A stretch of 52,456 nucleotides of DNA, taken from positions 1-52,456 of the forward strand of contig CAIKZP010000171.1 in NCBI GenBank assembly GCA_903831935.1, read 5' to 3'. The position numbers were made by a program, and so were the translations under genes. Shown piece by piece: positions 36,416-37,300 of this stretch (positions are counted from its first letter, which is position 1; every line of letters starts with the position of its first letter). The stretch is from an uncultured Bacteroidota bacterium. Lineage in GTDB: Bacteria; Bacteroidota; Bacteroidia; Chitinophagales; Chitinophagaceae. Below the pieces are notes generated by a model. It saw nothing but the letters and a program-made list of their open reading frames with translations, did not search any database and was not told the DNA's origin.

Positions 36416-36760
36416 CTATTTTACAGAATCAACCAATGCTTTGAAAGCAACTGGCTCATTCATAGCTAAATCGGCCAAAACCTTACGGTTAAGGTCAATT
36501 CCTTTTACACTCAATTTATTAATAAATTGACTATAAGTTAATCCTTCTTGTCTTACTGCTGCGTTAATACGTGCAATCCATAATTGACGGTATTCACGTT
36601 TTTTAAGTTTACGACCTACATAACTGTATGTTAAACCTTTTTCAACGATATTTTTGGCAACGGTATAAACGTTTTTACGTTTACCATAAAAGCCTTTAGC
36701 TTGATCAAGAATTTTTTTCCTTCTAGCCCTAGATGCTACTGCATTTTTTGAACGTGGCAT
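36416..36760 (-). CDS. rplT: Ribosomal protein bL20
   Basis: A 114-aa protein of the large subunit that binds early to 23S rRNA and, in several bacteria, represses its own m[54 protein letters not shown] and YSQFINKL are characteristic. It is the last gene of the rpmI-rplT unit; the leader before rpmI is the natural candidate for L20 control. Confidence 0.97.
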
Positions 36761-36844
36761 AGTATTAATTTTTTACGTAAACGATATTAAATACGCGTCT
36801 ACTGATTTTTAAAATGATGGTGGTTTTTTAAATAAACGCGTAGT

Positions 36845-37045
36845 TTATCCTTTCAAACGTAATAAACGTAGAACAAAATCTTTGTTTGGTGCACTCACCA
36901 TACCTTTTTTGCTCATTGCTCTTTTACGCTTTTTTGACTTTTTTGTTAAGATGTGACGTTTGAAAGCTTTCTGGAAAGTGATTTCTCCAGTACCAGTCAC
37001 CTTAAAGCGCTTTTTTGCGCTAGAATTGGTTTTTACCTTTGGCAT
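36845..37045 (-). CDS. rpmI: Ribosomal protein bL35
   Basis: A 66-aa protein of the large subunit. [37 protein letters not shown] and the short C-terminus ending in RLLRLKG match the family. It lies 84 bp before rplT. Its own promoter and a leader of about 90 nt separate it from infC, although read-through from thrS-infC is possible. Confidence 0.97.
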
Positions 37046-37065
37046 GTTAAATAATCTAATTAAGA

Positions 37066-37107
37066 TTACACCCTGCTGGCGGTTTCGAACAGACGAAACA
37101 CTTGTAA
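37066..37107 (-). promoter_or_regulatory. Structured leader before rpmI-rplT
   Basis: Within the leader, GTTTCG and CGAAAC (37082-37087 and 37094-37099) form a 6-bp hairpin, enclosed by the complementary TTACA and TGTAA (37066-37070 and 37103-37107). Another 6-bp hairpin, ATCCGA with TCGGAT, lies at 37123-37139 near the expected transcript start. Placement suggests control by a ribosomal protein, probably L20; this is inference. Confidence 0.4.
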
Positions 37108-37141
37108 GGCCCTACGGGAAATATCCGATTTTTTCGGATGG

Positions 37142-37172
37142 CAAAGGTAAGGGTTTGTAAACATAAATCAAA
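37142..37172 (-). promoter_or_regulatory. Promoter of rpmI-rplT
   Basis: The minus strand reads TTTG (37172-37169), a 19-bp spacer and TACCTTTG (37149-37142): both boxes and correct spacing. It lies 97 bp upstream of rpmI, after the infC terminator. Confidence 0.7.
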
Positions 37173-37274
37173 AGCCAAATTGGTATATCATAAAAATAAT
37201 TTCAATTAGAATAATTAGAAGTTAACTGCTTCTAATTAATTGAAAATCATTTCAATAGACATCTATAAACTAAA

Positions 37275-37300
37275 AAACAGCAACTATTATGTTGCTGTTT
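37275..37300 (-). terminator. Terminator of thrS-infC
   Basis: A 10-bp perfect stem (AAACAGCAAC with GTTGCTGTTT) and a 6-nt loop, continued by a T-run on the minus strand, 20 bp after the infC stop. Confidence 0.88.

Follow-up and report, generated by a model that had tools for sequence, protein, structure and literature searches.

Leaders of the L20 type are a standard case of one regulatory idea that has been invented repeatedly in unlike RNAs. According to the accessible part of one report, the C-terminal domain of ribosomal protein bL20 binds the helix 40-41 junction of 23S rRNA and also the Escherichia coli operator (PMC6962249), and the accessible text of another states that known L20 leaders have two G-C pairs and an AA dimer in common with the rRNA (PMC7247131). 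The Firmicutes family RF00558, exemplified by the infC-rpmI-rplT operon of Bacillus subtilis, controls an operon encoding bL35 and bL20 through a bL20 site at a helix junction that has been likened to 23S rRNA (PMC6097659 and PMC10931766, both in their accessible parts); it sits before infC and works by termination. The E. coli operator lies before rpmI, acts on translation and has likewise been compared with the 23S site (accessible parts of PMC10931766 and PMC6962249). It has two sites and combines an irregular hairpin with a long-range pseudoknot, one side of which reaches back into the end of infC (PMC6962249, same part). A deltaproteobacterial motif, predicted from sequence, presents the two G-C pairs and the AA dimer on a new scaffold (PMC7247131, accessible part). 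We found no bL20-operon leader described for Bacteroidota in open-access text, with supplements lying outside this search, so that an earlier listing is possible; the accessible parts of PMC7247131, PMC2864571 and PMC7160235 name none. In its accessible part, the last of these places such leaders in Parvimonas, Veillonella and Streptococcus; for several phyla, Bacteroidetes among them, it also describes an RNA that is cis-antisense to the L20 gene and is not a leader.

Here, we analyzed a window of 52,456 nt, which is the whole stretch of contig CAIKZP010000171.1 considered (assembly GCA_903831935.1, an uncultured member of the Chitinophagaceae). Its minus strand carries, in order, thrS, infC, a terminator-like hairpin, a promoter, a leader, rpmI and rplT. 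The features are given below, where R1 is a model built from the 30 closest loci, R2 is a model built from 100 leaders, and P1 to P4 are the helices of the leader core.

37896-37321, minus strand: infC, encoding IF3
37271-37299, minus strand: terminator-like hairpin with T run, 3' of infC (-17.3 kcal/mol, z -6.5)
37142-37173, minus strand: Bacteroidota-type promoter, with TTTTG (37173-37169), 19 nt and TACCTTTG (37149-37142)
37123-37139, minus strand: accessory 5' hairpin ATCCGA..TCGGAT, lineage-specific
37045-37121, minus strand: conserved leader core with P1-P4, model match (R1 89.9 bits, R2 83.1 bits), which ends on the A of the rpmI start codon
37071-37118, minus strand: P1, CCC (37118-37116) with GGG (37073-37071)
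37078-37111, minus strand: P2, GGC (37111-37109) with GCC (37080-37078)
37108-37102, minus strand: 5' bulge of P2, CTTACAA, followed by the closing pair G37101-C37081 and the bulged U37100; together with P2, the proposed bL20 site
37082-37099, minus strand: P3, GTTTCG (37099-37094) with CGAAAC (37087-37082), loop TCTGTT
37051-37069, minus strand: P4, GTAATC (37069-37064) with GATTAT (37056-37051), directly 5' of the start codon
36845-37045, minus strand: rpmI, ribosomal protein bL35 (PF01632, E 4e-22)
36416-36760, minus strand: rplT, ribosomal protein bL20, the proposed ligand (PF00453, E 4.3e-44)

The first-pass annotation of this window had described a terminator after infC and, 5' of rpmI, a promoter with both boxes and a leader some 90 nt long; all three are supported by the sequence, the first as a terminator-like hairpin. 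The infC hairpin and its T run were read by eye and are absent from the program's terminator scan of the window. The promoter has the TTG / TAnnTTTG form that we take to be the Bacteroidota type; a sigma-70 promoter was rejected, since the sigma-70 scan lists no site before the leader. A TAnnTT[TC]G box lies 5' of the core in 100/100 family leaders. In 89 of these the distance is no more than about 60 nt, as against 5% of mononucleotide shuffles, and in 58 leaders TTG is found 17-21 nt 5' of the box. The predicted leader length is about 92 nt, counted from an inferred transcript start. Downstream, rplT starts at most 400 nt from rpmI in 78 of 80 named loci (gap 19-148 nt); in the window it begins 84 nt past rpmI, so that direct coupling is not obvious. 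The spacer in the window (36761-36844, minus strand) holds an ACGCG/CGCGT inverted repeat, shared with locus L190, which could couple the translation of rplT to that of rpmI.

No Rfam family reaches its gathering score at the leader in a scan of the window, and at E values up to 10 the ten matches around it are weak and all far below their cut-offs. The first-pass annotation had also suggested a search against known ribosomal leader models, which gave no hit above cut-off: the L20_leader model RF00558 exceeded its 58.7-bit cut-off in 0/147 family genomes, with the B. subtilis control matched. Since it stays below the cut-off in all 147, our leader is not that Rfam family. Weaker RF00558 matches occur in 42 of these genomes and, among the matches listed, none lies at rpmI; two of them away from rpmI (G000:C133:3810-3935, 37.3 bits, and C75:26919-27023, 30 bits) are probably due to chance. 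Unlike RF00558, the present leader stands before rpmI and has no listed terminator. From the E. coli operator it appears to differ as a compact fold, local and some 50 nt long, with its own promoter; the terminator-like hairpin and the promoter separate it from infC, and the conserved pairing that we detected is local. Compared by description, the deltaproteobacterial motif belongs to another lineage and another scaffold, whereas the present scaffold itself appears to copy the rRNA junction. On present evidence, our leader seems to work like an L20 leader: it lies 5' of the bL20 operon and has a conserved structure with covariation.

The leader is a conserved and structured element. In the 30 closest loci the RNA upstream of rpmI follows one order: UUUCCC, 4 nt, GGC, some 7 nt with AA at their 3' end, G, U, a variable hairpin, C, GCC, 4 nt, GGG, GUAAUC..GAUUAU and AUG, with the GUAAUC..GAUUAU part broken in loci L026 and L029. 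In a MAFFT alignment of these loci, made from sequence alone, 97.2% of the cells that belong to proposed pairs are paired, compared with 85.9% in shuffled controls and 36-47% with slid partners, the structure having been derived from those same 30 rows. We then have a model-fitted alignment of 100 rows, which covers 100 of the 102 leader-bearing family loci (left out were L011, whose leader equals that of L010, and L105). Here the whole structure is 92.9% paired, compared with 38-51% for slid partners, and the individual helices are paired in 98.0% (P1), 100% (P2), 93.3% (P3) and 85.7% (P4) of cells. P4 is paired in 95.4% of cells across the 30 close relatives, with hardly any variation, and decays in divergent members. 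The GG:CC of P2 is invariant in 100/100 leaders, and the A of the bulge, its AA and the G of the closing pair are invariant in the 30 close relatives.

A covariance analysis across Chitinophagaceae had been proposed for this leader, with a lack of compensatory changes named as the outcome that would speak against it. The result was the opposite, with compensatory changes in P1, P2 and P3. On a tree built from rpmI coding DNA, and therefore independent of the leader, and with only Watson-Crick cells counted, the minimum numbers of pair-type changes are 3, 5 and 3 for the pairs of P1 (variants CCC/GGG, CUC/GAG, UCC/GGA and GCU/AGC) and 20, 23, 28, 14, 15 and 20 for those of P3; the last pair of P2 switches 9 times between C-G and U-A, and the closing pair changes once. 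In a comparison with alignments that were simulated on a tree of the leaders themselves, the five highest scores among all column pairs belong to pairs of P3, and two of them exceed all 60 simulated sets. By a second measure, all six pairs of P3 rank above every other column pair, one being beyond all 100 simulated sets. In the first of these comparisons, neither the nearly invariant P1 and P2 pairs nor the first pair of P3, which is non-standard in 34/100 leaders, stand out singly.

In unconstrained folding, the mean pair probabilities are 0.71 for P1, 0.79 for P2, 0.69 for P3 and 0.46 for P4. Over their first 60 nt, the 100 leaders have a mean z of -1.18 relative to mononucleotide shuffles, with values below -2 in 14%; folding energy alone is a weak signal for the leader. 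The z-score of -3.87 obtained for the window fold was discarded as evidence because it is inflated, that fold pairing the -7 box with rpmI codons. The GTTTCG/CGAAAC hairpin of the first-pass annotation is P3 and covaries strongly. The TTACA/TGTAA helix that was thought to close it had to be rejected: across 30 relatives, 56.6% of its cells are paired, compared with 55.9% in shuffled ones, and it also crosses the conserved P1 and P2, which the annotation had missed. Apart from this one helix, the earlier observation was sound. The ATCCGA/TCGGAT hairpin described at the 5' end is present in the window and recurs only in some relatives; among 18 close named loci it folds in L190, L191 and L209, with similar hairpins in L002, L014 and L027, and the base of its stem changes from A-U in the window to G-C in L002, or the reverse. 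In 177 of 180 leaders a box was available to delimit the segment between promoter and core, and 112 of these 177 segments fold at -3 kcal/mol or better, compared with 60 expected from mononucleotide shuffles. In addition, the P3 loop (37093-37088 in the window, minus strand) keeps a CNGU-like core in many relatives despite a freely changing stem.

We also compared the leader with 23S rRNA. No 23S rRNA match was found in the window's own genome, and therefore the family relatives G018 and G066 were used; the Rfam LSU structure was aligned to the 23S rRNA of G018. The position compared is the helix 40/41 junction. The 5' strand of the rRNA junction consists of GGu, six unpaired CCCuAA, a paired g, an unpaired u and paired gcgggc, and its opposite strand, gcccgc-c-aCC, is unbroken. 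In the R2 consensus, the 5' strand of the leader consists of GGC, seven unpaired UCaAcAA, a paired G, an unpaired u and six paired bases, and here too the opposite strand (six bases, C and GCC) is unbroken. The two thus have in common the GGY:RCC pairs, a 5' bulge ending in AA, a lone closing pair, a 1-nt bulge, a 6-bp helix and a continuous 3' strand. They differ in the size of the bulge (7 nt in the leader, 6 nt in the rRNA), in the short loop that caps P3 unlike helix 40/41, and in the lower part, which in the leader is P1, joined to P2 by an internal loop that is not the UAA/GAA loop of the rRNA. In the LSU structure lines, with most of the 2,925 positions examined, the 5'-strand pattern is unique. 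The leader likewise has two consecutive G-C pairs and an AA, which putatively corresponds to the published dimer.

A descriptor of the rRNA pattern was given ranges that also cover the leader, with 5-8 nt for the bulge, 3-10 nt for the capping loop and a minimum of 5 pairs for the helix. It matches 105 of 180 leaders, which represent 165 distinct sequences with 150 kept under 92% identity (one weak match, L203, E 0.46, was left out of this set and of the segment folding above), whereas the 1.05 million strand-bases of these loci contain 7 matches elsewhere. Only 2 of 20,000 mononucleotide shuffles match. The descriptor fails on the other 75 leaders, and it also matches one other site in the window and two places in 75 leaderless rpmI loci. 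When 6 pairs are required, 96 of the 180 leaders and 2 other places match. This likeness suggests that the P2-bulge-P3 core is a copy of the 23S helix 40/41 junction, scaffold included.

We next consider the distribution of the leader. R1 matches 90 of 147 Chitinophagaceae genomes, once each (E up to 0.1), and in every one of the 90 the match ends at the start of rpmI, from 16 nt inside to 12 nt before it. The gene rpmI itself was detected in 139 of the 147 genomes. Among the 49 other rpmI-bearing genomes, 12 (loci L038-L049) have diverged leaders, which R1 detects weakly on small loci (E 0.004 to 0.46). Therefore, the leader is present in 102 of the 139 family genomes with rpmI and absent from 37. 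The diverged leaders mostly belong to a second type (CCUGAAGAGG..CCUCAAGGG), which is also present among the 90. This type, represented by L038-L049, L117, L118, L127 and similar rows, has a lengthened P2 (GAGGC/GCCUC) and a shorter internal loop, and intergrades with the first type within the family. R2 places the leader beside rpmI in 80/80 named loci, a set that overlaps with the 147 genomes and is not independent of them. The named genera are Sediminibacterium, Hydrotalea, Ilyomonas, Foetidibacter, Ginsengibacter, Flavihumibacter, Segetibacter, Puia, Pinibacter, Terrimonas, Ferruginibacter and Flavitalea, and many metagenome-assembled genomes carry it as well.

Beyond the family, we ran whole-genome searches with strict filters, under which weak matches are lost. 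In the order, R2 matches 30 of 198 genomes, every one within Chitinophagaceae, and in the phylum it matches 10 of 296. Nine of these ten are in Chitinophagaceae; the other, a marginal match (G310, 26 bits, E 0.095), lies far from the rpmI of that genome and was therefore taken for chance. R1 matches 7 of the 296, all Chitinophagaceae. R2 was also run on the 37 family loci that lack a leader, on one rpmI locus from each of 40 other families of the class and on two 23S loci; apart from the leader of the window itself, this gave just two weak matches, with E values of 0.82 and 8.6. In 38 of the 40 loci from other families, an IF3-like frame ends 10-135 nt before rpmI. In these searches the element is confined to part of Chitinophagaceae. 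The first-pass annotation had proposed that it could be the Bacteroidota version of an L20 leader. As an L20 leader it stands as the best-supported reading, given the covariation, the strict link to rpmI and the helix 40/41 likeness; the phylum-wide scope is too wide, as the counts for the order and the phylum and the 37 leaderless genomes of the family indicate.

On a tree of rpmI proteins the leader state changes once, compared with 33 changes in shuffles, the tree resting on 65 columns with a support of only 75 for the dividing branch. The 35 leaderless family members L052-L086 have a divergent bL35 and almost no 5' UTR left; in 34 of them a -7 box lies 17-29 nt before the ATG. Two further loci, L050 and L051 (genomes G145 and G065), have a different leader of about 111 nt, unmatched by R2, with GGUAACCCCUUAGGAAAGGUUUACC and GGCAAGCCCUUAGGAAAGGCUC, and their bL35 stands between those of the leader-bearing and leaderless groups. 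This leader may be another bL20-type fold or a precursor.

Beyond the observed structure, conservation, fixed place before rpmI and rRNA likeness, we consider it likely that the element is an autogenous bL20 leader, which occludes the rpmI start site and so lowers the synthesis of bL35 and bL20. In this mechanism, the rpmI-rplT mRNA would start with a fold imitating the helix 40/41 junction, the site of the C-terminal domain of bL20. When bL20 is in excess of free 23S rRNA, it would bind the imitation at P2 and the bulge, and the complex would keep the 30S subunit off a start site that has no Shine-Dalgarno sequence. Synthesis of bL35 would then fall, and that of bL20 too, through coupling or mRNA decay. 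Judged from sequence comparison, bL20 very probably represses its own operon via the leader, and this repression would probably be translational rather than transcriptional. Against this reading, 37 of 139 family genomes manage without a leader.

The distances within the leader bear on the level of control. The gap between the end of the core and the AUG measures 20-28 nt in 100/100 leaders, a constancy that the model may favour because it covers the stretch up to the AUG, with P4 lying between in close relatives, whereas the box-to-core distance ranges from 5 to 81 nt. This suggests that the place of the core is held relative to the start codon and not to the promoter. According to the accessible part of one report, ribosomes in Bacteroidota hide their anti-Shine-Dalgarno sequence (PMC10931766), and occlusion of the start region, rather than of a Shine-Dalgarno sequence, would thus be expected. 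It could also be that bL20 binds the leader and acts by transcription termination or mRNA decay instead of blocking initiation, termination being the mode of the B. subtilis L20 leader (PMC6097659, accessible part). We regard this as unlikely: no T run follows any hairpin of the leader and the terminator scan lists no site at 37046-37142 (minus strand), although its silence is weak evidence because it missed the infC hairpin too, and a core held 20-28 nt from the AUG is a constraint that termination does not need. In the absence of any sign of a terminator within the leader, the simplest reading is that translation initiation would be blocked.

There is a slim chance that the structured leader responds to another ligand, such as bL35, IF3, another ribosomal protein or a factor, or serves mRNA stability alone. 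The first gene of the operon is rpmI, the case for bL20 as ligand comes only from the rRNA likeness and the operon content, and the accessory 5' hairpins could be mere 5' protection; however, the junction that is imitated is the bL20 site, and the invariant GG:CC and AA are features common to known L20 leaders. A conserved sequence without RNA function, be it a promoter-proximal DNA element or chance hairpins, would agree with the modest folding energy (mean z -1.18) and the several invariant positions, but it is already contradicted by compensatory changes in three helices, by the weaker pairing of shuffled and slid controls and by a distance fixed to the start codon and not to the promoter, and we give it practically no weight.

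Within the autogenous bL20 reading, a more specific proposal can be made, which we hold tentatively and at slightly under even chances: a near-literal copy of helix 40/41 was gained or lost once in Chitinophagaceae and works by start-site occlusion free of any Shine-Dalgarno sequence. In this family rpmI-rplT has its own promoter with or without the leader. The bL20 complex would then sit at a constant distance from the start codon, and P1 and P4 could stack end to end.

If the leader acts as proposed, it would add a further L20-leader solution, in a phylum for which we found no published one, and in this solution the scaffold, and not only a few bases, would repeat the rRNA site. Because relatives keep the promoter with almost no leader, the gain or loss of an autoregulatory RNA could be compared among close relatives, and this comparison would be made in bacteria that start translation without Shine-Dalgarno pairing. 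If true, the finding would mean that a ribosomal protein can control its own synthesis by start-site occlusion where there is no Shine-Dalgarno sequence to hide.
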